Assembly: GCA_001799285.1 (NCBI GenBank)
Contig: MGTD01000060.1
Location: 1-32,561 of the forward strand
Source: Deltaproteobacteria bacterium RIFOXYD12_FULL_56_24
GTDB lineage: Bacteria > Desulfobacterota > Desulfobulbia > Desulfobulbales > Desulfurivibrionaceae
Direction of reading: 5' to 3'
Length of the DNA: 32,561 nucleotides
Shown here: one piece after another, positions 3,755-27,290 of the stretch
Position numbering within the stretch: position 1 is the first letter of the stretch
How the letters are laid out: each line of letters begins with the position of its first letter
Notes under the pieces: model-generated
The model's input: only the letters and a program-made list of their open reading frames with translations
Told to the model about the DNA's origin: nothing
Databases searched by the model: none
Made by a program: the position numbers and the translations under genes

Positions 3755-3782
3755 GGGAGCCTCGATAAAGTTGTCGGGGGGG

Positions 3783-3895
3783 GGGCGATTAAGCCAAGAG
3801 GCAGATTCTATCTCCGGCCCAGGACGGCGAAAAAGGCGTTCAGGCGGATAGTGCGTTTCATCAAAAATCAGCCTCTGCAATTAAAGATGATACCC
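3783..3895 (-). pseudogene. Remnant of a second wzx 5' end and its leader
   Basis: Reading the minus strand from ATG at 3859 gives MKRTIRLNAFFAVLGR and then a TAG, matching MKHTIRRNASYAIIGR at the start of the intact wzx (1092). Beyond the stop the DNA still matches wzx (CTTGGCTTAATCGCC) to about 3783 and then turns into unrelated sequence leading into acyltransferase copy 2. The similarity also extends about 40 nt upstream of the start (AAAGATGATA block). This is therefore a truncated duplicate of the wzx start region, not a gene. Confidence 0.75.
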
Positions 3896-9459: not shown

Positions 9460-9612
9460 GTAAATGTCCAGCAGCACCGCATCTGCTTTGTCATCGGCCT
9501 GCTCGTGTGCAATAGCACACGTCACAGACCTCTTTCGCGCATCTACGGCACTGCTGAACATTTACATTATGTGGTTTGTCCCTTTAAGTGCGGCATTAAG
9601 TTGGATATTTAT
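9460..9612 (+). repeat. R3 palindromic element, copy 1
   Basis: GTAAATGTCCAGCAG at 9460 pairs with CTGCTGAACATTTAC ending at 9565, a 106-nt hairpin. Inside is a perfect stem CGTGTGC-AATA-GCACACG. A further tail carries a decayed outer tip near 9600-9612. TTATTGAT before the element and TTATTGAA at 9609-9616 look like an 8-bp target duplication (7/8), in which case the element ends at 9608. Removing it would put the radical SAM stop only a few bases before the next ATG, so it has split a tight gene pair. Confidence 0.8.
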
Positions 9613-9618
9613 TGAATT

Positions 9619-10782
9619 ATGATGAATTCACCAAAAATCATCCATATCATTACCAGGCTTGACCGGGGCGGCTCGGCGGACTTGGTTCTTAAGCTGGCGG
9701 CCGCGCAGCGAGAACGGGGGTGCGAGGTTGCGATTATCAGTGGTCGCACCGTCGATCCTGTGGCAGATTGCCAGGAATACCATCGGCAAACCGGAATCAA
9801 GATTGAATTTATTGACTGTCTGCAACGGGAGATTAATCCCTGGCTCGATCTGCAGGCCCTCTGGCGGCTTTTTTGCCTGCTGCGGCAAAGGCGGCCGGAG
9901 ATCGTTCACCTCCATACCGCCAAGGCGGGCTTTATTGGCCGCCTGGCTGCCAGGGCTGCTGGCCTCAAGGGGGTGGTGTACACCACCCATGGGCATATTT
10001 TTCATGGCTACTTCAACCGCTTGAAGACCGCCATCTTTATCCGCATGGAACAGCTGGCCGCAGCCTGCGGTGGCCTGATCACCACCTTGTCGGAAATGGA
10101 AAAACAGGATTTTGTTTGCCGGCGCATCGCTCCGGCCGCCCAGATCATCCCCGTGCCCAACGGTCTGGACCTGGCCCCGTTCAGCGTGGCGCAACGGGGA
10201 AACGTTCGCAGGGAAATCGGGCTGGATGATGAGACGCCGGTGATCGCCTGGGTAGGTCGCTTCGAACCAGTAAAAGGGCCGGAAATATTTCTGCAGGTTT
10301 GCCGGCAACTGCACCGGCAATATGGTAGCAGACTCAAGGCGCTGATGGCAGGAGACGGGGCCCTGAATGAAAAAATCCACCAGGAGCGGGAATTGTTAGG
10401 ACTCAATGATTTTCTGTTGCTACCCGGTTTCAGGCAAGATATAGTTTCTCTTTTTGCAGATATTGATCTGCTGGTAGTGACCTCTATCAATGAGGGATTC
10501 GGCATGGTTATCTTGGAGGCCATGGTGGCCGGTAAACCGGTAGTTGCCCATGACGTCGGCGGAATTGCCGAGCTGGTTGTGGACGGAGAAACCGGATTTC
10601 TTGTTCCAGTCGGGGATGTGGACGCTATCTGCAGCCGACTTAACCTGCTGCTCAATGACCGGGAACTGTATGCGGCCATGAGCCAGGCTGCTCGCCGGCA
10701 GGCTACAGCTTACTCCTTGACCGCGATGGCAGACAGGTTTGAGGCTATTTACCAGCAGGTGCGAATCGCAGCCTGTAAGTAA
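9619..10782 (+). CDS. GT4-family glycosyltransferase
   Basis: This 387-aa GT-B enzyme has HIITRLDRGGSADLVLKLA, the acceptor-side loop, HLHTAKAGFIGRLAARAAG, which is common in WcaL/PglA-like enzymes, VAWVGRFEPVKGPEIF in the donor domain, and the E-x7-E pattern NEGFGMVILEAMVAGKPVV. It likely adds one sugar to the lipid-linked unit. Two ATGs (9619, 9622) are possible; no strong ribosome site is visible because the leader is occupied by repeat R3. Its stop TAA (10780-10782) is formed from the GTAAC tip of the next R3-like element, suggesting that the original C-terminus was replaced or trimmed. Confidence 0.87.
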   Translation: MMNSPKIIHIITRLDRGGSADLVLKLAAAQRERGCEVAIISGRTVDPVADCQEYHRQTGIKIEFIDCLQREINPWLDLQALWRLFCLLRQRRPEIVHLHTAKAGFIGRLAARAAGLKGVVYTTHGHIFHGYFNRLKTAIFIRMEQLAAACGGLITTLSEMEKQDFVCRRIAPAAQIIPVPNGLDLAPFSVAQRGNVRREIGLDDETPVIAWVGRFEPVKGPEIFLQVCRQLHRQYGSRLKALMAGDGALNEKIHQERELLGLNDFLLLPGFRQDIVSLFADIDLLVVTSINEGFGMVILEAMVAGKPVVAHDVGGIAELVVDGETGFLVPVGDVDAICSRLNLLLNDRELYAAMSQAARRQATAYSLTAMADRFEAIYQQVRIAACK

Positions 10783-10984
10783 CTATCCAGCAGCACCGCA
10801 TCTGCGTTGTTGCACCCAGAGGGTATAAGTTTGTTGAAATTGCCAAAAGACGCAATTACAACAGGGCATGTGCGTATCTATGGTGATCTCTTTCCTGGCC
10901 ATTACGGTTTGGGGTTATTGCAAAACCAACAAAGTCCGTTTGAGCAGACAAGCTGCTCAACTCAGCAATAAACCTGGAGTTAAA
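10779..10984 (+). repeat. Composite of R3 and split R2 fragments
   Basis: The first 33 nt copy the left end of R3 (GTAACTATCCAGCAGCACCG). Then one half of R2 appears (GCACCCAGAGGGTATAAGTT, 10812-10831), about 100 nt of other sequence containing an R3-like GGTTTGGGG block, and the hairpin half of R2 (TTGAGCAG, CTGCTCAA around loop, to about 10965). GTTTG occurs at both edges of the interrupting segment (10829-10833, 10938-10942), as if something inserted into R2. The region has no gene; it ends at the ribosome site of the deacetylase. Confidence 0.55.
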
Positions 10985-11840: not shown

Positions 11841-12992
11841 ATGCTGGTGAAAATTATTGTGCCTCTTCTAATGATAGCCATCTTGGGGATTGGCCGGGAA
11901 TTTTTCTGGACCTCAGGGCCAGCCTGGCTGTTTTATTTTCTGTTGGCCGCCTCGATCACCATGGCCCTGTTGCCCCTGATCATCAAGTTAGCCTTTCATT
12001 TCAAGATTCTTGATCAGAGTGATCACGACCACCAACGCAAGGTGCATCGTGACCCCACCCCTAAAATTGGCGGCATCGCAGTGGTCTGTGGCTTCCTGCC
12101 CGCTCTGTTGCTGGCGGGTACGCAGTCGCCAGAGCTGGCCGCCATTATTGTCGGGTCGTTTTTGATCTTCTTGGTCGGAGTTCTGGATGACATCTTCTGC
12201 CTCTCTACCAAACTGAGATTTCTGGCGCAATTGACTGCCGCCCTGCTGGTGATCTGGTTCGGGGTACGCCTCAGCCTCTTGCCCGAGACCAATTTCTGGG
12301 CGCGCAACTTGAATGTTTTCCTGACCCTGTTGTGGATCATCGGGATTACCAACGCCTTCAATTTTCTTGACGGTATCAACGGCGAAGCCTCCGGGCTGGC
12401 CGTTATCATCGGCACGGTCCTGGCCATCTTCGCTTTTGCCCACAGCACCACCTTGCGAGGGGAGGTCATTGTCATTGCCGTCGGCGCTACTGCCGGTTTT
12501 ATGCCCTATAACCTGAAACGCAGGGCCGAGATTTTTCTTGGCGATGGGGGAAGCGGCTTCCTCGGGTTTTTCCTGGCGGTGATGGCGTTGTACATTAACT
12601 GGGGGGATCAGCCGGGCCTGGTCAATCTGTTCATGCCGGTTGCCATTTTCTCTTTGGGCATTTACGACATGTGCATGACCACTGTTACCCGGATTCACTC
12701 CGGGAAGGTAAGAAATTTCACCGATTGGTTAGTCTACACCGGCAAGGACCATCTCCACCACCGGCTAACGGGTGTTCTCGGCGGCAGCCGACTGGCGGCA
12801 GTATTTTTTATCTATGCCGTTGCCGTTGCCAATGCTGTTTTTCCGGTGCTCTACATCGTTTATCGGGGAACTTCGGACTGGTTCATTTACGCTGCCTTTG
12901 CGCAAACATTACTGATCTATGCCATGATCACGATCATGCTTTTCAGCTATCGTTACGAGCGGAGGAAGACGCCGAGGGTTGTCCTATCCTGA
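11841..12992 (+). CDS. WecA/MraY-family undecaprenyl-phosphate glycosyl-1-phosphate transferase
   Basis: This multi-pass membrane enzyme (383 aa) has all the family landmarks: HQRKVHRDPTPKIGGIAV, LVGVLDDIFCLSTKLR (the DD motif), NAFNFLDGINGEASG, FLGDGGSGFLG, and the cytoplasmic His motif KDHLHHRL. It transfers a sugar-1-phosphate to undecaprenyl phosphate and so starts repeat-unit assembly. ATG 11841 is preceded by a GGGAGG ribosome site; the open frame continues upstream to a TTG at 11772 but that part lies in repeat R4 and its flank. It is the last plus-strand gene of the group and faces the DegT gene across R5. Donor specificity (GlcNAc, QuiNAc or other) is not resolvable. Confidence 0.9.
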   Translation: MLVKIIVPLLMIAILGIGREFFWTSGPAWLFYFLLAASITMALLPLIIKLAFHFKILDQSDHDHQRKVHRDPTPKIGGIAVVCGFLPALLLAGTQSPELAAIIVGSFLIFLVGVLDDIFCLSTKLRFLAQLTAALLVIWFGVRLSLLPETNFWARNLNVFLTLLWIIGITNAFNFLDGINGEASGLAVIIGTVLAIFAFAHSTTLRGEVIVIAVGATAGFMPYNLKRRAEIFLGDGGSGFLGFFLAVMALYINWGDQPGLVNLFMPVAIFSLGIYDMCMTTVTRIHSGKVRNFTDWLVYTGKDHLHHRLTGVLGGSRLAAVFFIYAVAVANAVFPVLYIVYRGTSDWFIYAAFAQTLLIYAMITIMLFSYRYERRKTPRVVLS

Positions 12993-13132: not shown

Positions 13133-14365
13133 TCAAGTATCCGAAATTTTTTGGTAATAATCCCGAATTGCCGCGATTACCCGGTCAACCTCCGCATCCT
13201 GCAGCAGGGGATAGATCGGCAGGGATAGGCTTTCATGCCATAGTTGCAGAGAAACAGAACAAGCATTAGGTAAGCGGTCACAGGGCACCACATCTTGCGG
13301 CGATCGGTTCGGCTCACGTGCAAAAGTACGCATCGCCGTCCCGCTTGCCGCAACCTGCGGCACCCTGTGGCCGCTTATTCCGTGGTTATTTAACCCTTGT
13401 GGGCTTGCCCCGTGATCGGTTACAGCATTAGTTCCGGTTAGCAGTTGAAAGGGCTTGAAGACTGGCCGGGCGGCGCTTATTTTGTGGTTGCGCAGGTGGT
13501 TAAGCAGGGTTTCTGGGTTGGCAAGCTGGACCACGTAACGAAAATAAATTGGTTGCTGGTCTGGCTGCGCGCCTGGCAATCGCAGGGGCAGGTCTTTGAG
13601 TCCGGCATTATAGCGATGGGCGATCTCCCGGCGCCGGTGGATGAAATCCGGTAGACGGGTGAGCTGGACCAGACCCATGGCGGCCTGGAAATCAGTCATC
13701 TTGTAATTGTAGCGAGGGAGATAATCGTCCCGGTTATCATAGTCGCAGAGATCGGCGACCGCGTTTGTCAGTTCCTGGCAATTGCTCGCCACCATCCCCC
13801 CTTCGCCGCAGGTCATCACCTTGGTGGCGTAAAATGAGAAGATGCTCAGATCTCCCAGCGTACCGACCTTGGAGCCGGCAAGCTCCGCCCCGACTGACTG
13901 GGCGCAATCCTCGATAACCGGAATCTCGCGTTCCTTGAATAGTGTTATTCCGGCACAAGGGTTGCCGAACATGTGGGGCACGATGACCGCGCGGGTCTTT
14001 GGGGTAATCAGCCGCAGAGCGGCCTGACAGTCAAGATTCCCGTCGGCTGCGCCGACATCAGCGATAACCGGGGTGGCGCCGGTGTAATGCACCGCGTTGA
14101 GCAGGGCCGTGCAGACATAATCCGGTACAATTACCTCATCGCCTGGCCTTGTTCCCAGGGCCAGCAGCGCCAGATGCAGGGCCGAGGTGCCGGAATTTAC
14201 CGCCACCGCCTGTTGCAAGCCGAGAAAATCGGCGAAACGTTTTTCAAATTTACCCACCATCGCGCCCTGAGCGATCTGGCCGGACAGGATAGTCTCGGCG
14301 GCAGCCTTGGCCTCCTCAGCGCCCAGAGTGGGTCGTGAATGGGGGATGGGGTCAATATTCTTCAA
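13133..14365 (-). CDS. DegT/DnrJ/EryC1 aminotransferase carrying an in-frame R1 insertion
   Basis: This is a fold-type I PLP enzyme of the sugar aminotransferase (DegT/ArnB/WecE) family: AVNSGTSALHLALLAL, VIEDCAQSVGA with the PLP-contacting Asp, FSFYATKVMTCGEGGMV with Schiff-base Lys182, and YNYKMTDFQAAMGL. It transfers an amino group, usually from glutamate, to a keto-sugar nucleotide. The start TTG 14365 overlaps the end of the WbqC gene by 14 nt. Residues about 314-367 (TDHGASPQGLNNHGISGHRV and onward) do not belong to the family: they are encoded by repeat R1 plus its target duplication, after which the normal C-terminus (WHESLSLPIYPLLQDAEVDR) resumes in frame. Without the insert the protein would be 356 aa. 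Whether the 54 extra residues allow folding is unknown. Confidence 0.88.
   Translation of the reverse strand: MKNIDPIPHSRPTLGAEEAKAAAETILSGQIAQGAMVGKFEKRFADFLGLQQAVAVNSGTSALHLALLALGTRPGDEVIVPDYVCTALLNAVHYTGATPVIADVGAADGNLDCQAALRLITPKTRAVIVPHMFGNPCAGITLFKEREIPVIEDCAQSVGAELAGSKVGTLGDLSIFSFYATKVMTCGEGGMVASNCQELTNAVADLCDYDNRDDYLPRYNYKMTDFQAAMGLVQLTRLPDFIHRRREIAHRYNAGLKDLPLRLPGAQPDQQPIYFRYVVQLANPETLLNHLRNHKISAARPVFKPFQLLTGTNAVTDHGASPQGLNNHGISGHRVPQVAASGTAMRTFAREPNRSPQDVVPCDRLPNACSVSLQLWHESLSLPIYPLLQDAEVDRVIAAIRDYYQKISDT
13270..13423 (+). mobile_element. R1 miniature inverted-repeat element (IS66-like ends) inside the DegT gene
   Basis: The 154-nt element runs from GTAAGCGGTCACAGGGC to GCCCCGTGATCGGTTAC, whose ends are imperfect inverted repeats. 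A perfect direct repeat AGCATTAG flanks it (13262-13269 and 13424-13431). Insert plus duplication is 162 nt, 54 codons. Further arms inside are also palindromic, including GGCGAT...ATCGCC. It has no transposase. GTAA tips with 8-bp duplications are the signature of the IS66 family. Confidence 0.88.
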
Positions 14366-15050
14366 GTTCTTGATTCAACTTTCGGATGAGCGTGAAATCG
14401 CCACAGGTGTTAAAGATGTAATCCAAAGCCGACATATAGGGGAGGAAGGGGCCGTTGATCTGGGGATATTCCGGATGAACGAAATGCTGGAAAAGCAGCT
14501 TGAGCCCCGCCGCCTTGAATTTTTCACACTCCATGTAATCCTTGCCCCCGGCCCCGGCCAGATAAGTGTCGGCCTTGAAATGACGGCAGATGTCGAGCAG
14601 CCTGGCGGTTGGTTCCTCGCTGAGCCCGGGGATATCGCTGGCGCGAACAATCTCGGTGTCAATGGCAAAAATTTTTCTGATCAGCTCAATAGTCGCCATG
14701 TTTAGATCGGCCAGGGAGTCGCCGGTGTTGGCGTAAAGCTCTGTAAGGGCTGGTAGATGCTCACGGTAGCAGGGCGCCTTGCCGTAGTAAGTCAGCAGGG
14801 TCTGCAGGTGTTTTCGGCGCCAGTCCTGCTGATTGTTGATCTGCACCCCGGAGATCAGATCGCCAAAGTTGAAGCTGACCGGCACCGACAACCAGATCCA
14901 TTGCTCATGTGTCTTGATCCGGTTGCGGTTCTGGTACTCGTTTTTTTTGAACTGGACATTGTCCAGCAGCACAAAGAGATCGGCTTTGTCCAGCTTGTCA
15001 AAATATCCGAGCCAAGGCATGAATTGGGGTTGATGAATGGCGATTCTCAT
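14352..15050 (-). CDS. wbqC: WbqC-like family protein
   Basis: This 232-aa protein begins MRIAIHQPQFMPWLGYFDKL and continues ADLFVLLDNVQFKKNEYQNR, the defining N-terminal signature of the WbqC family found in O-antigen clusters. The family is repeatedly linked to amino-sugar or glycine-type modification genes but its reaction is unproven. ATG 15050 lies directly beside repeat R4, whose edge supplies AAGGAA a few bases upstream, so the ribosome site is inside the repeat boundary. It overlaps the DegT aminotransferase by 14 nt; the pair may act on the same sugar. Length is close to the family norm. Confidence 0.85.
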   Translation of the reverse strand: MRIAIHQPQFMPWLGYFDKLDKADLFVLLDNVQFKKNEYQNRNRIKTHEQWIWLSVPVSFNFGDLISGVQINNQQDWRRKHLQTLLTYYGKAPCYREHLPALTELYANTGDSLADLNMATIELIRKIFAIDTEIVRASDIPGLSEEPTARLLDICRHFKADTYLAGAGGKDYMECEKFKAAGLKLLFQHFVHPEYPQINGPFLPYMSALDYIFNTCGDFTLIRKLNQELEEY

Positions 15051-15205
15051 AGGGTTCCTTGCAAATTAATTCACTCCCCTTTGCGGGGGAGTGCGAGGGT
15101 GGGGGGAAGTTGCCATTATATCGTCTGTTGCAGCTACCCCCACTCCCAACCCCTCCCGCAATGGGGGGGGAGTTTTTACAAAATATTAAGAGTTACAAGG
15201 TATTA
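15051..15205. repeat. R4 G/C-rich palindromic repeat, copy 2
   Basis: The arms ACTCCCCTTTGCGGGGGAGT and CCCTCCCGCAATGGGGGGGGA lie between a left flank (TTCCTTGCAAATTAATTC) and a right flank AATATTAAGAGTTACAAGG, which matches, inverted, the left end of R4 copy 1. Its right tip contributes TAA, the stop of the minus-strand polymerase gene, and its left edge contributes the likely ribosome site of the WbqC gene. Confidence 0.7.
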
Positions 15206-16561
15206 GCCTGTTTGCTCGCCAACCAGGTAGGGATAAGTGTATTTGGTGGGCGTCACTGATGCCCTATCGGGCAAGGATCCTTTCGTCTCGACCTTGTTGA
15301 TGATCTTCTCATAGCTCACCAGCAGGGCCAGCAGCAGCATGTATGGTTCCATGATGCGGACGATGATGTAGGTGTTGGCGCCGAGACTGTGGACAAGCAT
15401 GCCGGTGGTAGCGCAGAGTAGCCCCAGGGCCAGGCCCCGGCTGAAGGGATCCGGAGTGCGGCGGTAAACTGATAAAAGATAGCGCAAGATCGTATAATTC
15501 AGAAAAGCAAAGCTTATCAGACCCAGAAGGCCGTTTTCCACCATAAGTCGGATAAACTGACCGTCAAAAAAACCGGCCCCGGTAATGCCGCGACCGAAAA
15601 CCGGACTTCTGGAAAAAAGTACCAGCGCTCTTTTGTAACCCTCGATACGCTCGGAGGTGGAAGGGTCAAACTTTATCCCGCCAATGGTTTCAGTACGGGT
15701 AAAACCCTCCTCTGCTTTCCAGAATCTGGCTCTTTCCTGGATATTTTCGGGCAGCAAGGGGATGGACATCACGGTCAGAATGGCAAAGGCAAAGATCAAG
15801 ATCTTGCGTTGCACCCCCTTGGTCAGGGCCAGGAAGGTGAGCAGGGAAACCCCCCCAGCCACCCAGGAACCCCGCGACTGGGTATAGATAAACGGCAGCA
15901 CCGCAGCCCCCAACAGCAGGGCATATAAGGTTTTTTTTCGGCCCTTGGGCTCATGGATGTAAAGACCGGCCACGACAGCGCCCAACACCACATAATAACC
16001 GCCAAAGGTGTTAGGCTCCAGATTGTTGCCTTCAAAAGGCATGGCAATGCGACCGCCGCCGGGGATTTGCAGATAACCGTTAATCGTGACGATGGCCATG
16101 GTAAGCAAGGCCGAGCCAAGCATGATTTTAATATCCCTTTTATCCCGAGCATAAAAGAAAACGACAAAGAAAAAGAAAAAATACTGAAGCATCTTAAGGG
16201 TAAAGAAAAAGCCGCTGGCCGGGTTGGCGTACAGCATGGCAACCCCGAGAGTGGTAGTCAGAACCAGTACCAGGGAATGCAGGGCCATGGGGGTGAAAAA
16301 CCGCCCGCCCGAGAGCCGTTCGAGGGGGAAATTCTTATTGATTACAAAGTCAAAAAGCACCCTGATCAGCAGTACGGTGAGCAGCAGATCTTCAACTTTG
16401 ATGGAAATTTCCCGGGCGGCGGTTTTACCTATTTCTATCTCCGGGGAAAGGGAAAAGGCCAGCGGCAGCAAATAGAGAGCGATAACCGGGTTGAGGACGG
16501 TGATCAGCAGCAGAATCAGCAGGACAACAAAGCCACCGTATATCAGAAGGATATTTTCCAT
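15203..16561 (-). CDS. Wzy polymerase / O-antigen ligase-like membrane protein
   Basis: This 452-aa protein is almost entirely hydrophobic, with about a dozen membrane helices (MENILLIYGGFVVLLILLLI at the start) and a long loop in the second half with RSPVFGRGITGAGFFDGQF, as in the Wzy_C/O-antigen ligase family, followed by FLNYTILRYLL and GMLVHSLGANTY. It either polymerises repeat units (Wzy) or ligates chains (WaaL-like); with Wzx, Wzz-like and Wza-like neighbours, polymerase is more likely. ATG 16561 begins directly with the first helix. The stop TAA comes from the tip of R4, so the last residues (LVGEQTG) may have been set by that insertion. Confidence 0.82.
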   Translation of the reverse strand: MENILLIYGGFVVLLILLLITVLNPVIALYLLPLAFSLSPEIEIGKTAAREISIKVEDLLLTVLLIRVLFDFVINKNFPLERLSGGRFFTPMALHSLVLVLTTTLGVAMLYANPASGFFFTLKMLQYFFFFFVVFFYARDKRDIKIMLGSALLTMAIVTINGYLQIPGGGRIAMPFEGNNLEPNTFGGYYVVLGAVVAGLYIHEPKGRKKTLYALLLGAAVLPFIYTQSRGSWVAGGVSLLTFLALTKGVQRKILIFAFAILTVMSIPLLPENIQERARFWKAEEGFTRTETIGGIKFDPSTSERIEGYKRALVLFSRSPVFGRGITGAGFFDGQFIRLMVENGLLGLISFAFLNYTILRYLLSVYRRTPDPFSRGLALGLLCATTGMLVHSLGANTYIIVRIMEPYMLLLALLVSYEKIINKVETKGSLPDRASVTPTKYTYPYLVGEQTG

Positions 16562-16645
16562 CTACGATCTGGTTCAACTCAAGGACGGTTTTTTTTGTAA
16601 TTGATCACAGGATAAGCCGGCTAAGTTTCGCACTGCCTTCAAGCG

Positions 16646-16806
16646 GTAAGCGGTTACAGGGTGCCGCAGGCTGTGGCGCACCCAGAGGGTATAAGTTTCG
16701 CTTGGCAGGCAAGCTGCCAAGCTCAGCTATAAGTGGGACGGCGATGCGTACTTTTGTACGTGAGCCGGACCGATCGCCGCAAGATGTGGTGCCCTGTGAC
16801 CGCTTA
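16646..16806 (-). mobile_element. Short R1 variant with nested R2, at the 3' end of the Wzz gene
   Basis: This 161-nt copy runs from GTAAGCGGTTACAGGG to CCTGTGACCGCTTA. It lacks the outer left part of full R1 and contains R2 at 16678-16730, with stem CTTGGCAG and CTGCCAAG. The TAA stop of the Wzz/kinase gene (16804-16806) is formed by the element's tip. No clean target duplication is seen. The copy at 25501-25661 has the same length. Confidence 0.75.
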
Positions 16807-19026
16807 TTTTTTTCTGCCAATTTTCGCGATCAACCCGGCAATCTTCCAGCGCAGATTTTCCAGGTTATTTCGTAAGCTGACCAAAAGATCACGTTGCAGA
16901 TTTTCCTTATCGATCAGGATGGGGGCTAAGGTTTTGTGCTTGTTGATTACCAGACCGGCGACTTTTACCATTAGGCTTTCCAGATGACTCCTGAACCTGA
17001 CCAGGGTGCTCCGGTCCAGTTTCTCGTACTCGGTCAGCAGCAGCGCCGCGTCCACTTTTTCGGCCAGAATGGAGGTTTCGGAGGTTTCCAGAATGGCGCT
17101 GGTGTCGATAATGACAAAATCGAAAAAATCCCGTAACGAGGCAACAAGGTCTTTCATCCGTTGGGAGTTGATGAAGTTGGCCGGATTTTCCACCCTGCTC
17201 CCGCCGGTGAGGATGTAAAGATTATCCAGGCCCGGGGGGGCAAGCAGGTGTCGGGCCGGGATCTCGCCCAGCATCAGGTCGGTGATCCGGCGAATCGAGA
17301 TATCCCAGTCTTCACTGCCCATAACCACATCACTTAAGCCCGGCTGCCGGTCAATCCCGAACATGCTGTGCAGTTTAGGTGCTTGAAAATCAGCGTCAAC
17401 CAAGGCAACGCTGCGTCCTGCCTGAGCGAGGGCAATGGCCAGATTGGCAGCACAGGTCGTGACTCCCTCCCCTTTGGTGGCGCTCATCACGGCCAGGGTG
17501 CGGATATCATTTTCCCGGGCGGTCAGCAGCAGATTCGGCACCAAGGCCCGATACTCTTCGGCCAGGGTCGAGTCAGCGAGAAAATGAGCCGGCAGGGACA
17601 GATAACGCAAGGCCTCCTCGATGCGCAGACCAGGGTAGCGATTGTGGATCAGCTCCAAGCCTTCGCTTCTGTTCCAGATGGTTAACGAGGTCATGATCGG
17701 CACCCCGAAGGTCTCGGCCAGCACATCCAGTTTGCGCGGCACTGTATCCAGGGCCTCATGAATGAAGCCGGCGATAAAGCCGATGATCACGGACAAGATG
17801 AGGCTGACCACCAGATTGCCAATAAAGGCGATTCTGGTTATCGGCACCAGGGGCAGGACCGGGTAACGGGCGATGGTTACATCCTCCACCAGCTCCGCCT
17901 TGCGCACCTCAACCTCCTGCTGCTTCATCAAAATTTTGTTGTAAAGGGCCTCATTGGCCTCTACTTCCCGCACCAGCAGGTCATAGGTCTTGGCCGCGTC
18001 TGGAATTCCTTTCAGCTTGGCGTAGGTTTCAATCAGGTCCTTCTCCACCGCCCTGCTCTCATCCTCATAGCGTTTTTTCTCCGCCTCCAGATCAACGATA
18101 AACTGCTTGATGATTGCGTTCTTGGCCTCTCGGATGGCCACTACTTCAGGGTGGTTTGGCGTGTAATGGTGCAGCAGCCCCTTTTCCTTTACCCGCAGGT
18201 CTTTAAGAGCCTCATTGAGCCTGGATTGGACGCCGCCGCTTTCATTGTTTGCCCCCCCTGGAACAAAAACCCAGCGGGTATCTTCTTCAGGATTGATATC
18301 CTGGCGCATGGTGACCAGGCTGTCATTGATGCGGGCAATCTTGAATCCCAAGGTGTCAATGATGTTTTTTCTTTCAACGTATCTCGCAAGGATAACCTGC
18401 TGCTCATCCGCAACCGTGGTCAGCTCCAGGCTTTTACGGAATTCATTCAGTTTCTCCCGGGCGGCGGTTAATTGTTCTCTCGATTTTGACGATTGATCGT
18501 CAACGATCTTGATCTCGTTAATAACGCTTTGATTTCTTTCATAATAGGCGGCCTCGCGATACGAGGTTGCCACCAGCTCGGCCAGTTTTTTGGCCATTGC
18601 CGGTTTGGTATCTTGTGTTTTAACGATGAGGATATTGCTTCCATGTTTGTCGGCTTCAGCCGTAATGCTCTTTTCCAGTTTCTTGATCACCGCCATGTAG
18701 TCCTGGGAGCGCAGGATCTCATCGGGTTGCAACTCTGAGGGGATCAAGCCGGCTTTCTGGGCAACGACTCGCAAAACGGGGAAACTGCTGATCATGATTG
18801 AGGCAGTGGCGATATGATCCCCAGGCCGGACAGTGCCGATAAGAATGTCTCCCACGGTGGTGACCTTTTCAATCTTGAGCGAGACCTCGGCTTCGTAAAC
18901 CGGCTCAGGCTTGGCGTAAAAAACCAGGCTGAGCATTAACAGGGCGGCAAGCAGACCGCTGATTTTAATCGTCCGTTTTCTGCGGTGGGTAATCTCCCGG
19001 ACGTCGTTAATCGTATATTCAGCCAT
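16804..19026 (-). CDS. Wzz-like chain-length protein fused to a BY-kinase-like domain with altered P-loop
   Basis: This 740-aa protein has a Wzz domain with an N-terminal helix (residues about 22-40), a long coiled-coil periplasmic region with KSREQLTAAREKLNEF, and a second helix (about 398-425), followed by a cytoplasmic CpsD/BY-kinase-type domain. The Walker A position reads SATKGEGVTTCAANLA near residue 515: the catalytic Lys of the usual GEGKS/T is Val. Walker A' (ALVDADFQAPKLH) is intact and Walker B reads FVIIDTSAI instead of DTPP. The C-terminus (IAGLIAKIGRKK) lacks the Tyr cluster that BY-kinases autophosphorylate. It may thus bind nucleotide weakly or act only structurally in chain-length control. 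It begins 18 nt after the exporter gene. Confidence 0.87.
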   Translation of the reverse strand: MAEYTINDVREITHRRKRTIKISGLLAALLMLSLVFYAKPEPVYEAEVSLKIEKVTTVGDILIGTVRPGDHIATASIMISSFPVLRVVAQKAGLIPSELQPDEILRSQDYMAVIKKLEKSITAEADKHGSNILIVKTQDTKPAMAKKLAELVATSYREAAYYERNQSVINEIKIVDDQSSKSREQLTAAREKLNEFRKSLELTTVADEQQVILARYVERKNIIDTLGFKIARINDSLVTMRQDINPEEDTRWVFVPGGANNESGGVQSRLNEALKDLRVKEKGLLHHYTPNHPEVVAIREAKNAIIKQFIVDLEAEKKRYEDESRAVEKDLIETYAKLKGIPDAAKTYDLLVREVEANEALYNKILMKQQEVEVRKAELVEDVTIARYPVLPLVPITRIAFIGNLVVSLILSVIIGFIAGFIHEALDTVPRKLDVLAETFGVPIMTSLTIWNRSEGLELIHNRYPGLRIEEALRYLSLPAHFLADSTLAEEYRALVPNLLLTARENDIRTLAVMSATKGEGVTTCAANLAIALAQAGRSVALVDADFQAPKLHSMFGIDRQPGLSDVVMGSEDWDISIRRITDLMLGEIPARHLLAPPGLDNLYILTGGSRVENPANFINSQRMKDLVASLRDFFDFVIIDTSAILETSETSILAEKVDAALLLTEYEKLDRSTLVRFRSHLESLMVKVAGLVINKHKTLAPILIDKENLQRDLLVSLRNNLENLRWKIAGLIAKIGRKK

Positions 19027-19044
19027 GCCTGCTTAGCTCCATAT

Positions 19045-22005
19045 CTATTTTCCACTCCAAGCTTCGCCACCACCGGTCGGCATTGAGGGCGGAGTCGAAA
19101 TGGTCGTGGTGGCTGCCGGCGCCGCTTCCCTCCTGATTGGGAAGCCCTCATTCTTAGGCCAGGCCGTGGCGCCATAGATATCCATCGGGGTGCGCATTAC
19201 GGTCAAGTAAGGGGAGAGGGTGCGCAGGAAATCGCGGATATTCCCGGCCGTGTTGGTGGCCATGTAGATTATATCGCCGTTCTGCAGGGAGACGTTCTGC
19301 CGAAAATCGCCTTTCTGGTAAAGATCATTGAGATTGACCACAAAGGCGTCCGGTTTGGTTGCATCCCCTCGGATAACCATTACCTCGTCTGCCTTGGCAT
19401 AGTATGAGGGTCCGCCGGCCAGGGTAAGAGCCTCGAGCAGGTTGATGCTCGCGTCATAGGAAAACAGGCCAGGACGCATTACCTCACCGAACACAAAAAT
19501 CCGGTTCTTGACCTCGCTCTTGTAGGGGATGAAGAGCACATCCCCATCATCAATAGCAATGTCATGCCGATAATCGGCCTTGAACAGGATGTCAAAGACA
19601 TTAACCTGATAGGTCTTGCGGGCTCTGGTAATTTCAACCCTGGTCAGATCTGCCTCCTTGAGGTAGCCGCCGACCCGGGAGATAAACTCGGTCAGCCGTT
19701 CCTGGCCATAAAGACGGTAAGTCCCAGGGCCGGTCGGTTGTCGGGTCAGATCCCGCACTGCGCCAAAGATGGAGGCTCTGTAAGCAAGTTTTTCAGTGGG
19801 ACGGACCTTGACCAGGGGATGCTTGATGTACTGCCGTAAAAATTCCGCCAACGCCTGGTCTGCCTCGGTCGGGGTCAGGCCGGCCATCTTGAAATCAGTT
19901 ATGAAGGAGAAAGAGACCGTTCCTCTTGGGGAAACATTCAACTTGTAGGTGTTTTCTTTAATCCCTTCCCAGATGGTTGCCTCCACCACGTCTGTGGGGC
20001 CAATCCGGTATTCGGCAACCCCATCTGTTACCTTAAAAGACTGGTATTCCCGCATTGGAATCAGCTCCGGCGCCTCTTCAAACGGGTCAATGTTTTGGGC
20101 ACGCCCAAGCACGGCCGGTTCGCCAGCGTCTGAGCCCAGTCCGGATAAACGGGTTGAGGCGGTCGTGGTTATTTCCCCAGCGCTTTTGCCTGGCAACTCC
20201 TCGACGATCGGATCCCCCCGGAGAATAACGCGGATATCCACCCTCCGGTTTTTCTGCAGGGTGGCCTGATCGTTACCTGGATACTGGACCACACTGTCTC
20301 CAAAAGCCTCTTGCCTGATCCTCTCAGGCAGAATACTCTGCTCGCTTAGATAACGGGCGACACTCCGGACCCGCCCTTCGGAAAGTATCTGGTTGTTGGG
20401 AAATTCGGAGGTGTTAATGTCCCGGATATCGGCAAAACCGTCCATTTCCAGCGAAGTGCCTTCCGTGGTCCGCAGAAACTCCGCCACCCGGTTCAGGACC
20501 ACAATGGTTTCCGGCCGCAGATTAACCTTGCCGGTATCGAAAAAAACCGCCGTGGTAAAAACCGGGATTACTATCTTCTCGAGGATTTTTTCGATTTTTA
20601 CCACCGGGGGCGGCGGCAAGGGGATAGCTTCTTTTTTGCGGCAGTCGGCGGAAAAAACCCCGGGCGTGGCCGGGCCCTGCAGCCAAATTTTTAGTCCCTC
20701 ACCATGGGAGGCGGCGATCAAATCCGGCTTCCCGTCGCCATTGATATCCCGGATGGCAAGATCGTGATAATATCCGGCCTTGGGAAGGCCCTCGTCCCTG
20801 GCCTCCCATTTTCTCCCCCCTCCGGGGCCAAGTTCCTGATACCAGATAAAAAGCCCATGGTTGTCGTTGGAGGTCGCGACGATATCCAGCAGGCCATTGC
20901 CGTCGAGATCAACCGCCTTGGCCCGCCAGAAGCTTCCTTTTGCCGTAAGCTTTTCCGAGCGAGGGAAACCGCTTTTCCCATCGCCATAGTAAATATGCAC
21001 CCCGTTGAAATTGGAGGCCGCAATGATATCCGGGTTGCCGTCACCGTCAATATCGGCGATCTCCACTCCCCAGTAGGAATCCCTGGCGAGCACCGGGCCG
21101 GCTGACCAACGGCCGTCACCCAGGCCGAACCAAACCCGCAAAGAGGCCGAATCGACTCCCCAGCCCGCTCCGGCAATATCCAGTTTGCCGTCATGGTTTA
21201 AATCAGCAACCGCGATATCCTTGTAAATACCAATCCGGGTGGGGCCGGTTTCGGAGGCAAAGTTCCCCTGGCCGTTACCCAGCCAGACCTGGATGCCGCC
21301 GATGTTGATGTTGGAGGTGTTGGCCGCGATGAGATCAAGATGACCGTCGCCGTTGATATCGACCAGGCGCAAGCCCTCGTAAAGCTCTTTTTCGGTTATC
21401 GGGGGCGTGGTAATAAAACGGCCCTGTTCGTTGATTCGGATGTGGATGCCCTTGGTATCGCCGATACTGGAGAAAATTAGATCCTTGTAGCCGTCTCCGG
21501 TGATGTCTCCAGCGGTTATCGAGCGGACATCAGCCCTGATTCGGATCCGCTGCTCCCGTGCCCAATTGCCGGCCCCATCGCCCAGCCAGTAAAAAATATC
21601 GCCTGGTTCGGTGCTGCCGCCGATGATATCCAGGCCGCACTCATTATTAAAGTCATCTACCCACAGACTGCGATAACTGCCGGACATCTCCGGGCCGATG
21701 TCCAGAGACCATCTATTTTCAGCTTTGACCCGAGCCACTCCCGGATCAAGCAGGGCAAAAGGCATCGATCCGGCACATCCGGCGAGGAAAGGCAGAACAC
21801 AGCAGATGGCCGCGACCAACCGAGCCAGAGAAGAATTTTTCAGTAACCAATCACGGGGTAAACCCACAGAGGTCAAATAACCACGGAACAAGCGGCCATA
21901 GGGTGCCGCAGGTTGCGGCAAGCGGGCTGGCGATGCGTACTTTTGTACGTGAGCCGGACCGATCGCCGCAAGATGTGGTGCCCGGTGATCGCTTACCTTT
22001 TTCAT
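19045..22005 (-). CDS. Outer-membrane polysaccharide exporter fusing FG-GAP, OmpA and Wza/SLBB domains
   Basis: This is a 986-aa protein. After an N-terminal stretch encoded by repeat R1 (residues about 4-57) comes a lipoprotein signal with lipobox LAGC (Cys77). Residues about 90-440 hold several FG-GAP/VCBS-type blade repeats (DINGDGHLDLIAAN, DIDGDGNPDIIAAS, DLDGNGLLDIVATS) with Ca-binding DxDGDG loops. Residues 467-590 form an OmpA-like peptidoglycan-binding domain (AVFFDTGKVNLRPE, GFADIRD, LSEGRVRSVARYL). Residues 664-950 are Poly_export plus SLBB (YRIGPTDVVEATIW, IFGAVRDLTRQP, IFVFGEVMRPGLF). Wza-family proteins are usually about 350-400 aa with only the last part. It probably forms the outer-membrane channel, anchored to peptidoglycan, with a beta-propeller. 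The start ATG overlaps the HD-GYP stop (ATGA). Confidence 0.88.
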   Translation of the reverse strand: MKKVSDHRAPHLAAIGPAHVQKYASPARLPQPAAPYGRLFRGYLTSVGLPRDWLLKNSSLARLVAAICCVLPFLAGCAGSMPFALLDPGVARVKAENRWSLDIGPEMSGSYRSLWVDDFNNECGLDIIGGSTEPGDIFYWLGDGAGNWAREQRIRIRADVRSITAGDITGDGYKDLIFSSIGDTKGIHIRINEQGRFITTPPITEKELYEGLRLVDINGDGHLDLIAANTSNINIGGIQVWLGNGQGNFASETGPTRIGIYKDIAVADLNHDGKLDIAGAGWGVDSASLRVWFGLGDGRWSAGPVLARDSYWGVEIADIDGDGNPDIIAASNFNGVHIYYGDGKSGFPRSEKLTAKGSFWRAKAVDLDGNGLLDIVATSNDNHGLFIWYQELGPGGGRKWEARDEGLPKAGYYHDLAIRDINGDGKPDLIAASHGEGLKIWLQGPATPGVFSADCRKKEAIPLPPPPVVKIEKILEKIVIPVFTTAVFFDTGKVNLRPETIVVLNRVAEFLRTTEGTSLEMDGFADIRDINTSEFPNNQILSEGRVRSVARYLSEQSILPERIRQEAFGDSVVQYPGNDQATLQKNRRVDIRVILRGDPIVEELPGKSAGEITTTASTRLSGLGSDAGEPAVLGRAQNIDPFEEAPELIPMREYQSFKVTDGVAEYRIGPTDVVEATIWEGIKENTYKLNVSPRGTVSFSFITDFKMAGLTPTEADQALAEFLRQYIKHPLVKVRPTEKLAYRASIFGAVRDLTRQPTGPGTYRLYGQERLTEFISRVGGYLKEADLTRVEITRARKTYQVNVFDILFKADYRHDIAIDDGDVLFIPYKSEVKNRIFVFGEVMRPGLFSYDASINLLEALTLAGGPSYYAKADEVMVIRGDATKPDAFVVNLNDLYQKGDFRQNVSLQNGDIIYMATNTAGNIRDFLRTLSPYLTVMRTPMDIYGATAWPKNEGFPIRREAAPAATTTISTPPSMPTGGGEAWSGK
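21843..21996 (-). mobile_element. R1 element inserted just after the start codon of the exporter gene
   Basis: A 154-nt R1 copy with ends GTAACCAATCACGGGG and CCCGGTGATCGCTTAC is flanked by ATTTTTCA (21835-21842) and CTTTTTCA (21997-22004), a 7/8 target duplication. It lies in the opposite orientation, relative to its host gene, to the copies in the DegT and HD-GYP genes. Insert plus duplication is 162 nt, so the frame is kept. R2 is absent. Confidence 0.87.
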
Positions 22006-23615
22006 GCTGCGTTTTCCTCTAACTCATTCTCCGCTTTGTCGGTGGTTTTGCCTTCTTGGTCAAAAGAGGAATCTACCACTGTCAGCAACGGCTCGTGCAT
22101 CAAGTTATATTGCTTGGGTTCGGTCAGCCGACGGCCACGGGCGTCAGTCAATACCGTCACCTCCGGCCTTAAGGGGGCCAGCCTGTTGGCTTTATGCACC
22201 ATGGCGATTTCGCCGGTATTAAGCTGAACATAGAGGCCAACCGGGAAAATCGCGAACTCGTCAATAAGTACCTTCATCAGTCGCCGACTTAACTGTCCTT
22301 GCCCGCGTTCGATAATCTCCTTGACTATCTCGAAGGGGATTTTTCTCTTCCTCTGCGGCCGGGGCTGGAGCATGGCGGTAAAGGTGTCGGCCAGGGAGAT
22401 GATGCTGGCGTACTCGTGGATTTCATCAGCCCGCAAACCCCTAGGGTAGCCGGAGCCGTCCGTCCTTTCATGCACCTGGCGGGCGACCTCGGCTATCACC
22501 GCAGGCAAGCCGCTCTCTTTGAGGATCTCGTATGAGTAAATGGGATGTTTTTTTATTTCTGCCAACTCGTCCTGCTCCAATTTGCCTTTCTTCATCACCA
22601 CAGTCGGCGAAACCCTAAGCATGCCGATATCGTGCAACATGGCGCAGAGTGTCAGTTCTCGCAGGTCGTTTTGTTCATAGCCAAGGACTATTCCCATTTT
22701 GGTGGCAACTACGGACATGTCCAGTTGATGGGAGGTGAGATCATCGCTGCGTTTTTTGGCAAACAGCATCCTGATAAGGGTGTTGTCCGCCATTAAGGAG
22801 GTCATGATCATTTCGGCTATGGTGTTGATGGCTGCGAGATCAGAAGACTTATTTCCCTGGCAGAGGTTCTGCTGATATTCGTTCAGCCCGTTCCACATGT
22901 GCTGCCAGAAAGGATCCGTAAACTCTCTTGCTTCGTTTTGTTCTTTCTGCCCGGGCAGGGGGCCGGGTGAGACGTTGACCGGCTCATCAGCAGAGGGTGG
23001 CGGCGTTTTTTCAGCGATAGCCACTGCTATATCTTCAGCCTGATCAGTTTCGACCGCAGTATCTTCAATCTGAACCGATTCGGTCTGCATCTCTTCCGGC
23101 TGAGCGTTTTCTTCCACAAGTGCTACGACATGAGTATCAGGAGGTGGTTTCGGTTCGGTGATCAGCGGCTCAGCTTCAGTTTCAGCCATGGTTTGACTTG
23201 CGTTGCCGGCAATGGCAAGTTCGGAGTCCTCATTAGCATCTGGAACTAAGCAGACCACAGGTAAGCGATCACCGGGCACCACATCTTGCGGCGATCGGTC
23301 CGGCTCACTTACCAAAGTACGCATCGCCGTCCCGCTTATAGCTGAGCTGGGCAGCTTGTCTGCCCTAGCGAAACTTATGCCCTCTGGGTGCGCCGCAACC
23401 TGCGGCACCCTGTGGCCGCTTGTTCCGTGGTTATTTGACCTTTGGGGGGGTGCCCCGTGATCGGCTACGACAACAGAAGCATCTGTCTCTGTTTTTGCTT
23501 CGTTATCCTCCGCTTGCGGCTCTTCCCCCGTCACCTTCTCCGGCGCAGCCACAAACACGGCATTTCTCTCGCCTGGGTAGGACGACATGGTTCTTAAAAC
23601 ATGGGTCAATCTCAT
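22002..23615 (-). CDS. HD-GYP domain protein with an in-frame R1+R2 insertion
   Basis: This 537-aa protein's second half is an HD-GYP c-di-GMP phosphodiesterase-like domain: LTLCAMLHDIGM with H328/D329, KKHPIYSYEIL, and VHERTDGSGYPRGL around 381-394 (the motif normally starts HHE; the first His is Val here), then SLADTFTAML. The C-terminal part (YVQLNTGEIAMVHKANRLAP) is the usual HD-GYP tail. The first 230 residues are acidic and low complexity, without a membrane segment. Residues about 49-120 are encoded by repeat R1 with nested R2 and do not belong to any domain. The HD-GYP gene overlaps the exporter start (ATGA), so c-di-GMP turnover is coupled to exporter synthesis. Confidence 0.85.
   Translation of the reverse strand: MRLTHVLRTMSSYPGERNAVFVAAPEKVTGEEPQAEDNEAKTETDASVVVADHGAPPQRSNNHGTSGHRVPQVAAHPEGISFARADKLPSSAISGTAMRTLVSEPDRSPQDVVPGDRLPVVCLVPDANEDSELAIAGNASQTMAETEAEPLITEPKPPPDTHVVALVEENAQPEEMQTESVQIEDTAVETDQAEDIAVAIAEKTPPPSADEPVNVSPGPLPGQKEQNEAREFTDPFWQHMWNGLNEYQQNLCQGNKSSDLAAINTIAEMIMTSLMADNTLIRMLFAKKRSDDLTSHQLDMSVVATKMGIVLGYEQNDLRELTLCAMLHDIGMLRVSPTVVMKKGKLEQDELAEIKKHPIYSYEILKESGLPAVIAEVARQVHERTDGSGYPRGLRADEIHEYASIISLADTFTAMLQPRPQRKRKIPFEIVKEIIERGQGQLSRRLMKVLIDEFAIFPVGLYVQLNTGEIAMVHKANRLAPLRPEVTVLTDARGRRLTEPKQYNLMHEPLLTVVDSSFDQEGKTTDKAENELEENAA
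23261..23468 (+). mobile_element. R1 element with nested R2 inside the HD-GYP gene
   Basis: GTAAGCGATCACCGGGC at the left and GCCCCGTGATCGGCTAC at the right are inverted ends. The direct repeats GACCACAG (23253-23260) and GACAACAG (23469-23476) match at 7 of 8 bases. The 208 nt plus 8 is 216, 72 codons. Compared with the DegT copy, the extra 54 nt is exactly R2 (23338-23391). Confidence 0.88.
23338..23391 (+). repeat. R2 hairpin repeat nested in R1
   Basis: This is 54 nt, 18 codons of the HD-GYP frame. Its stem is GGGCAG and CTGCCC around a CTTGT loop. The junctions with R1 (CCGCTT before, GCCGCAACC after) are the same as in the short R1 copies at 16646 and 25501, so R2 entered R1 once and the composite then spread. 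Confidence 0.8.
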
Positions 23616-25093: not shown

Positions 25094-25246
25094 GTAACTA
25101 TTCAGCAGCACCGCATCTGCGTTGTTATCAGCCTGCTCATGGGCACAAGCACACGTCGCAGGCATCTGCCTAACAGCTACGGCACTGCTGGATAGTTACG
25201 GTTTGGGTTGTTTTTGTTCGTTTCCGGCCTTGAGCTGGATAGTTAC
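25094..25246. repeat. R3 palindromic element, copy 2, in the leader of the PilZ operon
   Basis: GTAACTATTCAGCAG at 25094 pairs with CTGCTGGATAGTTAC ending 25199 (106 nt), and a further GCTGGATAGTTAC ends at 25246, an outer inverted tip, for 153 nt in all. TAGATTTC (25086-25093) and TAAATTTC (25247-25254) match at 7 of 8 bases as target duplications. It would be transcribed in the 5' leader if the upstream promoter is real. Confidence 0.85.
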
Positions 25247-25480: not shown

Positions 25481-25500
25481 GAATTTCGTCAGTACTTTTA

Positions 25501-25661
25501 TTAGCGGCCACAGGGTGCCGCAGGTTGCGGCGCACCCAAAGGGAATAAGTTTCGCTAGGCAGGCAAGCGACCAAGCTCAGCTATAAGCGGGACGGCGATG
25601 CGTACATCAAGTACATGAGCCGGGCCGATCGCTGCAAGATGTGGTGCCCTGTGACCGCTTA
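25501..25661 (-). mobile_element. Short R1 variant with nested R2, abutting the PHP gene stop
   Basis: This 161-nt copy spans TTAGCGGCCACAGGG to CCTGTGACCGCTTA, ending immediately before the PHP stop codon (25662-25664). R2 occupies 25529-25581 as a 53-nt version whose hairpin stem has lost pairing (TTGGTCG against CTGCC). Same length and layout as the copy at 16646-16806. Confidence 0.72.
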
Positions 25662-27290
25662 TCACAGGGCGGGACTGGCGGTGGGTAAGCGGCAGAAAAC
25701 CGGATTAGCGATCAGTTGGGAATCAAGATCCAGCCGGTAATAGGTCATTCCCTTTTTCTGCTGGTAATCAAGCTCGATGATCTCATTAAATGACCCGGTA
25801 ATTTCAGTATTCCAGACTATCGCGCCCTCGCGGATAAGGCGTAGCTCCAGGGCTGGAGCCTCCGGAGGCACAATTAGCTCGATTTTGATCCTGGTGGGTC
25901 TGCGCACGGTGGCCGTCTCTCCCATCTCGGCCCAGCGCTGCCCTGCTTCATCCCATATCTGGAATTTTTTCAGAACCGGCTTGGGAACTTTTGCCGAGCC
26001 GGTTACCGCATAAATCCGTCCTTCCCGCAGGGCAGCCAGCATATCCTTGCGGCTGAGCTCCCGCAGCATGAACACGGTCTGAGTTTCGCCCAGCCAATCG
26101 CCGACATCATAGTCAAGCTCGCCGATGGCCCAGACCGGCCTTGCCCGATCGCCATGCACATACTCGGTTAAGACCTTGTCCCAGATCCCCCCCGGGATAC
26201 CGGAACTCTTCATCCCCTCGGCAAATACGGCAAAACCCGTGTAATTACGGGTGGTAAGTAGCTCGGAAGAATATGGTCTGGTTTCCATCAGCATTGGGCC
26301 GGCCTGGAAGACACCGGTGCTGATATCCGGCGCTGACCAGAAGATTAGGCCGCCCCGGTCATTGACATAATCGATCAGATCCTGAAAGGGAGCAGAGCCT
26401 TGGTCGCCATGGTACTGGTCGTATTTGGGCTGGAAAAAGGGGAAATTGTTAACCAGAAAGAGCAGGCTGATCACGATCAGCATCATGCTTGACTTTCTGG
26501 CCCGACGAAGGCCGGTTGAAAGGGGCTCTGGAGCCTTGGGTGTGGCAGTTGGTTGAGCAGCTAGAGCGTAGGGGTAGGGTGTGGCGCGGCGCGGCGGGAA
26601 GAGGCGGGCAAGAGCGAAAACAAGCAAGGGCAGCGGCCAGAGATTGAGCAGGCTTGACCAGGCAACAATCAAGGGCTTCCGGTTGCTTACCGTTGGCAGA
26701 TTGTGAAAATCATCGGCCTTTTCCAGCCCGAGGACCAGCATGTCCTTGTGAAAATTTACTACTTTTAGGCCACGGTCCACCTGATTCTGCCGGTAGTCGA
26801 ATTTGCCAATTTTTTCCTTATCCCCCTTACCAGAGACCAGCAGCCGACTAAGACCTTCCCGGCTTAAGACATCGCCAACAAAGGCCGAGACCGAGCCGGC
26901 CCAATAGTAGAAAGCACCCACCTCGGCGCCGGGCAGAATAAGCATGTCCGGATGCTGGCGAGCGAGTTCGTTGATCTCCTGCAAATATAGGTCGGCGCCG
27001 TAGCCGCGGATAGAACCCCGCTCTTCGAATTTTCTGAACAAGTGGCGTAGGGGCGGCAAGCCATATTCTACCCGGTTGTTATACTTATCGTTAAAAACCA
27101 CAACTCGCATGCCGGCTTTACGCGCCCGTTCAACAACCTCTGCAAAGCTTAACGGTGAGCCGGCAGCCTGGCTTTCCAGATGGATCACCCCGGGCACGGG
27201 CTGTAATTCCTGGGCGAAAGCCAACGCTGGCGCTACGGCGGCAAGGAGAATCAGAGTCAGGAAAGAAAAAATATTTTCTTTAATTACCAT
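25662..27290 (-). CDS. PHP-domain-like membrane protein
   Basis: This 542-aa protein has a signal peptide (residues 1-26, ending ALAFAQ), then a PHP-type domain: GVIHLESQAAGSPLSFAEVV, ERARKAGMRVVVFNDKYNN and ILPGAEVGAFYYWAGSVSAF. Two membrane segments follow (about 205-230 and 268-285), then an extracytoplasmic region with IYAVTGSAKVPKP. PHP phosphoesterases normally begin HxHS/T with metal ligands; here the motif is HLES and other His/Asp ligands look absent, so catalysis is doubtful. Similar PHP-like proteins occur near glycan genes without known role. The gene is 9 nt downstream of the DegT aminotransferase stop and thus in that operon. Confidence 0.68.
   Translation of the reverse strand: MVIKENIFSFLTLILLAAVAPALAFAQELQPVPGVIHLESQAAGSPLSFAEVVERARKAGMRVVVFNDKYNNRVEYGLPPLRHLFRKFEERGSIRGYGADLYLQEINELARQHPDMLILPGAEVGAFYYWAGSVSAFVGDVLSREGLSRLLVSGKGDKEKIGKFDYRQNQVDRGLKVVNFHKDMLVLGLEKADDFHNLPTVSNRKPLIVAWSSLLNLWPLPLLVFALARLFPPRRATPYPYALAAQPTATPKAPEPLSTGLRRARKSSMMLIVISLLFLVNNFPFFQPKYDQYHGDQGSAPFQDLIDYVNDRGGLIFWSAPDISTGVFQAGPMLMETRPYSSELLTTRNYTGFAVFAEGMKSSGIPGGIWDKVLTEYVHGDRARPVWAIGELDYDVGDWLGETQTVFMLRELSRKDMLAALREGRIYAVTGSAKVPKPVLKKFQIWDEAGQRWAEMGETATVRRPTRIKIELIVPPEAPALELRLIREGAIVWNTEITGSFNEIIELDYQQKKGMTYYRLDLDSQLIANPVFCRLPTASPAL

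Follow-up and report, generated by a model that had tools for sequence, protein, structure and literature searches.

Three minus-strand genes in the window, the whole 32,561-nucleotide stretch analysed here, contain copies of one short palindromic repeat, R1, and in all three the host reading frame runs through the element. How does a mobile repeat enter genes without breaking them, what moves it, and has it been selected to be read as protein? The source is a 3.04 Mb draft genome in 67 contigs (G000, 95% complete) from a sulfur bacterium related to Desulfurivibrio (Desulfobulbales).

R1 copies in the window

The first copy (154 bp, 13270-13423, plus strand) lies in a minus-strand gene for a DegT/DnrJ/EryC1/StrS aminotransferase (13133-14365; PF01041, E 1.9e-85; perosamine synthetase-like). 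It is bounded by a perfect 8-bp duplication, AGCATTAG, and the gene reads it in frame -0 as 52 amino acids (VTDHG...). The insertion site is empty in an 89%-identical orthologue of another genome, G013. The second copy (154 bp, 21843-21996, minus strand) has a duplication that agrees at 7 of 8 positions (TGAAAAAG/TGAAAAAT) and sits three codons past the ATG of a polysaccharide export gene (19045-22005, minus strand; Pfam domains Poly_export, SLBB, FG-GAP and OmpA), before the signal peptide. There it codes for an N-terminal segment in frame +0 (VSDHR...). The third copy (208 bp, 23261-23468, plus strand), also with a 7/8 duplication, contains a 54-nt module of two small hairpins, R2 (23338-23391, plus strand), and is read in frame -0 as 70 amino acids near the N-terminus of an HD-domain (HD-GYP-like) gene (22002-23615, minus strand). 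The positions, tips, lengths and duplications given for these copies in the initial annotation were borne out, and so was its observation that the exporter copy is inverted relative to the other two and is still open. It was also right that the elements carry no transposase: none is encoded.

Two further copies of the R1+R2 type, both on the minus strand, are intergenic. One (16597-16807) has no clear duplication, and its tip (..TTAT) provides the TAA stop for the minus-strand ORF 16804-19026. The other (25500-25662) is without the outer tip, and its tip provides the TAA stop for the minus-strand ORF 25662-27290. When one mismatch is allowed, the window contains the tip GTAASCGRTCAC 10 times, against 0.33 expected. 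Elsewhere in the window, two tandem minus-strand ORFs (1345-2520 and 2534-3880) share stretches that are 74-77% identical at a spacing of 1234, a tandem gene duplication.

Anatomy of the element

R1 begins with GTAA and ends with TTAC. In the first copy the left tip, core and inner right tip make up a palindromic part of 108 nt (13270-13377, plus strand), which folds as a single long imperfect hairpin (-67.5 kcal/mol, z = -8.4) and matches both strands. Positions 109-154 of R1 form a 46-nt extension (13378-13423, plus strand) that closes with a second, outer right tip, GTAACCGATCACGGGGC, and it is this outer tip that the target duplication abuts. The outer tips of the element are GTAAGCGRTCACAGGG and GTAACCGATCACGGGG. 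R2 is found at two different positions in 208-bp copies, and a 180-bp form carries a 26-nt module.

R2 is present in the window at 7116-7170, 10816-10971 and 23338-23391; it occurs outside R1 too, and is once split by about 100 nt. Its insertions, whether outside R1 or at either position within it, have no evident duplication, and R2 may be a mobile hairpin in its own right.

The window also has members of a sister family, in which the layout of palindrome and doubled right tip is the same and the tips read GTAACTATTCAGC, at 9460-9613, 10779-10815 and 25094-25246. The last of these (plus strand) is a 153-bp MITE in which the palindrome is followed by an extension with the second right tip; its duplication is TAGATTTC/TAAATTTC, and its tip is identical to that of two IS66-type elements, L113 and L114. 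Cores and tips are exchanged, because in relatives the R1 core sits between the tips of the sister family. In the order, the R1 core is common to elements with three kinds of tip (GTAAGCGATCACAGGG, GTAACTATCCAGCA and GTAACCGTTCA).

Copy number, length and distribution

BLAST and pattern searches of the source genome gave about 150 clusters of R1 copies. Tips with up to two mismatches numbered 332, against 6 with the reversed pattern. At 96 elements we found R1-like tips at both ends together with an 8-bp duplication having at most one mismatch (62 of the 96 duplications are perfect), where an offset control that compared shifted octamers put the chance level at 0.5. The catalogue was built from the neighbourhoods of matches (458 kb), and diverged copies may be absent from it. 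Neither a plasmid collection nor Rfam gave a match to R1. The 154-bp copies differ from their nearest neighbours at 2 positions or more and from the consensus at 8.75 on average; given these differences, the burst was not very recent.

The initial annotation had claimed that adding 8 to the length of R1 gives a multiple of 3 in every case. Counting lengths modulo 3 in the 96 duplication-bounded copies showed the tendency but not the rule: 63 are 1 mod 3, while 20 are 0 and 13 are 2, so that 33 of the 96 depart from it. The lengths include 154 bp (45 copies), 208 bp (9), 153 bp (7) and 180 bp (4), and the forms of 180 bp and 234-236 bp, which depart from the rule, have been amplified as well.

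An exact scan for the R1 core pattern in 84,980 genomes returned 59 stretches. The titles of their records name Desulfobulbaceae, Desulfobulbales, Desulfurivibrio, one Desulfobacterales bacterium (LH_M18) and one unclassified proteobacterium, and for that reason we regard R1 as an element of the Desulfobulbales and close kin. In relatives, 13 of 20 elements with R1 tips are 133 bp long (1 mod 3), other lengths being 132, 134, 138, 144, 159 and 213; sister elements of 150-153 bp occur there too.

Insertions in genes

Most R1 sites are intergenic, with more than 85% of copies outside genes. For the genic test we removed the copy, kept one duplication and scored the ORFs across the site with codon usage; genic status rests on these coding scores, Pfam and the one empty site. 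Ten copies in the source genome were confirmed as genic and nine of them are in frame 0. Besides the three in the window, these lie in genes for Ppx/GppA (C7:70961), a TrmA-like methyltransferase (C9:12145), a metallophosphoesterase (C14:39981), a PBP4/S13 carboxypeptidase (C32:52390) and an SF2 helicase (C1, about 12532-12740), and in the signal region of LptA (C7:30899). Eight of the nine are read in -0 and one in +0. The tenth copy lies out of frame in a ClpA/B-like gene (C37:2390), which is a real gene, with 12 codons left to the stop. With one third expected in frame 0, nine of ten has a chance of about 4e-4 (nine of nine, 5e-5). Out-of-frame calls numbered four, the ClpA/B-like gene and three ORFs (C11:39192, C51:17712 and C29:9179) that were rejected as genes; these three have no Pfam match and resemble antisense ORFs.

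The same outcome is seen in relatives, where all four genic copies are in frame 0. The murF gene of D. alkaliphilus AHT2, a member of the same family, has a 133-bp R1-type insert with a perfect 8-bp duplication and the encoded segment VTDYGGHGVSGHR... Desulfurivibrio AMeS2 has 133-bp inserts in its RlmN and CobQ-like genes, and LH_M18 a 157-bp insert in a TreZ-like gene. In total 13 of 14 genic copies are in frame 0, in 13 unrelated conserved genes of three lineages, so the likeness to the Rickettsia palindromic elements that the initial annotation saw holds for what happens in genes. Host proteins that are otherwise normal gain 45-70 amino acids from the inserts. In alignments to solved structures three of the inserts fall between conserved stretches (residues 97/103 for Ppx, 155/169 for RlmN and 260/290 for MurF of the matched chains). 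The R1 copies suggest that conserved enzymes tolerate, at several sites, MITE inserts of about 50 residues that keep the frame.

We considered whether the genic inserts could be disrupted genes or assembly artefacts that look open by chance, as the source genome is a draft in 67 contigs. We think this very improbable: the MurF insert, with its perfect duplication, is in the complete genome of an isolate (one contig of 3,097,763 bp), 13 of the 14 cases are in frame 0, and conserved sequence flanks the insert on both sides.

Reading frames and selection

Both orientations of R1 do enter an open frame, as had been proposed. The consensus is open only at +0 and -0, and frame 1 ends at the TAA of the tip. 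To say that this combination looks selected, as the initial annotation did, goes further than the data allow. When the tips were held fixed and the inside was shuffled, both frames were open in 16% of cases (12% when the stems were kept, and about 4-5% with the length rule). Across 44 copies, +0 is open in 36, -0 in 37 and both in 30, and a neutral simulation, in which the same substitutions were placed at random across these copies, gave 35.0, 35.5 and 28.3. Because open frames are lost at the neutral rate, we see no maintenance of openness. Substitutions are uneven by codon position (116, 108 and 161), but the excess falls on codon position two of the frame that genes mostly use, and so gives no support for coding selection.

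One selective reading is that R1 lineages were selected for two-way coding competence, with doubly open, 1-mod-3 forms spreading since more of their insertions survive. Two genera have amplified forms (154, 208 and 133 bp) that all measure 1 mod 3 and are for the most part open in both orientations, and this leaves selection some scope; the predominance of frame 0 among genic copies (13 of 14) would fit as well. Even so, we judge it quite unlikely given the shuffles and the neutral loss described above. The 180-bp and 234-236-bp forms and the 150-153-bp sister elements break the length rule, and the great majority of copies lie outside genes, where coding is irrelevant. It is also rather unlikely that the R1-type IS66 MITEs of the Desulfobulbales are an independently evolved coding-competent lineage, analogous to the Rickettsia elements and favoured since frames open both ways would allow a third of genic insertions to survive, with the 133-, 154- and 208-bp forms as its traces. 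The simplest account of the frame-keeping forms is a founder effect together with selection on host genes, and the in-frame pattern in genes would arise because that selection removes the other phases.

A candidate transposase

The initial annotation had called R1 a non-autonomous IS66-family element. The IS66 family has ends and 8-bp repeats as described in PMC11946415, and R1 agrees in its GTAA ends and 8-bp duplications. No source element was found in the genome or the genus: the 95%-complete source genome gave no IS66 DDE or TnpB domain (PF03050, PF05717), 16 congeners yielded no IS66 DDE domain either, and TnpC queries found no DUF6444-group TnpC in the genus. Tip-matching transposons are present in the order. 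The relevant group, represented by L306, was recovered with an L138 query; a first IS66 profile (A1) had missed it at its E-value limit. TnpC elements with 8-bp duplications have tips GTAACTATTCAGC (L113, L114, L115), the close variant GTAACTATCCAGC (L091), GTAACTAATCACAGGG (L309, L317, L318, L323, L325) or GTAACCGATCAGGGGG (L306, L315). L321 shares the tips of the last two without a clean duplication, and L138 and L303 have tips GTAACCGTTCACCGGG without a duplication. The outer tip of R1 matches the L306 group (L306, L315, L321) at 15 of 16 bases (P = 6e-5 when everything but GTAA was shuffled). For the left tip, agreement with known IS66 tips is only 13 of 16 (P about 0.009 by the same shuffle).

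Genome G117, which houses the L306-type transposons, also has a 134-bp MITE (L326:2581-2714) with outer tips identical to those of R1 at 16 of 16 bases and a perfect duplication, AGCGCATG; it is inserted within an IS66-type element. The R1 core is in addition found between GTAACTATCCAGC tips and between GTAACCGTTCA tips, both of which match IS66-type elements of the order. Given TnpC elements in the order that have 8-bp duplications and whose tips differ from the outer tip of R1 at a single base in 16, mobilisation of R1 by an IS66-type transposase is well supported by inference from the sequences.

A canonical IS66 element (tnpA-tnpB-tnpC, tips GTAAGCG..ACCCC) might have mobilised R1 in place of the TnpC-only or TnpC+DruA group. 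In R1, both the left tip (GTAAGCG) and an inner block (ACCRCATCT) look like the ends of this type, and such elements are present in Desulfurivibrio genomes (L086, L087). We find this fairly improbable, since it matches at most 11 bases of 16, where the DUF6444-type group matches 15, and the tips of the one canonical element in the complete D. alkaliphilus genome do not match the R1-like copies there.

Several IS66-type elements of the Desulfobulbales (L306:448-2818, L102:1240-3653 and L138:107-2940) have, between their ends and on the upstream side of TnpC, a DruA-family ORF (PF14236, E 1e-31 to 5e-37). The DruA family is that of the Druantia defence protein DruA; here a defence protein may be linked to an accessory gene of transposons.

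We favour, with a probability of roughly 0.85, the reading in which R1 is a MITE, a DUF6444-type TnpC (IS66) mobilised it in trans, and host-gene selection filtered its genic copies and left nearly all in frame 0. A DUF6444-type TnpC of the Desulfobulbales would act on the outer tips and duplicate 8 bp of target on integration; we infer that this source has been lost from the lineage or is missing from the assembly. We assume that the phase of integration is roughly random. Within a gene, frame 0 would be open in either orientation from GTA/GTG, a second phase would stop immediately, at the tip's TAA, and the third would run into internal stops. Frame 0 is kept because of the length (154, 208 or 133) plus 8, and therefore about a third of genic insertions would leave an intact ORF with an insert of 45-70 amino acids. 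Host-gene selection would then remove nearly all insertions in other phases. R1 itself shows no sign of being maintained as coding sequence.

Comparison with known systems

IS66 elements with a DUF6444-domain TnpC (ISBst12-like, some with a DruA-family ORF) share GTAA tips and 8-bp duplications with R1, but R1 encodes no protein, is 133-208 bp long and palindromic, and has a doubled right tip. RUP (IS630), MITEPsy1 and Correia/NEMIS are likewise short, non-autonomous elements of high copy number with IS-like tips and target duplications, but none is IS66-type. RUP is intergenic and carries stops in every one of the six frames, and the length of MITEPsy1 shifts the frame (PMC2229807, PMC3189936). 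In the open-licence literature we found no IS66-type MITE that behaves like R1.

R1 also resembles the palindromic elements of Rickettsia and Wolbachia (RPE/WPE), which are palindromes of 100-150 bp found in frame in unrelated conserved genes with the ORF left open (PMC10969869, PMC2229807, PMC3767692); the target duplication of RPEs is entered as "?" in PMC2229807. R1 likewise is a palindromic repeat (a 108-nt hairpin in 154 bp) found in frame in unrelated conserved genes. It differs in having 8-bp duplications and a candidate transposase class, in being mostly intergenic and in belonging to a different phylum. By analogy R1 works like the RPEs, which is a likeness of behaviour, and we file it as an IS66-type MITE. 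We know of no established target duplication or transposase for RPEs. How such palindromes enter conserved genes unbroken is an old question. For R1 the 8-bp footprint is clear, there is a candidate class of transposase, and the genes entered include murF, rlmN and lptA. The account that R1 suggests is a plain one: the tip sequence and the length leave one of three phases open, and selection on host genes does the rest.
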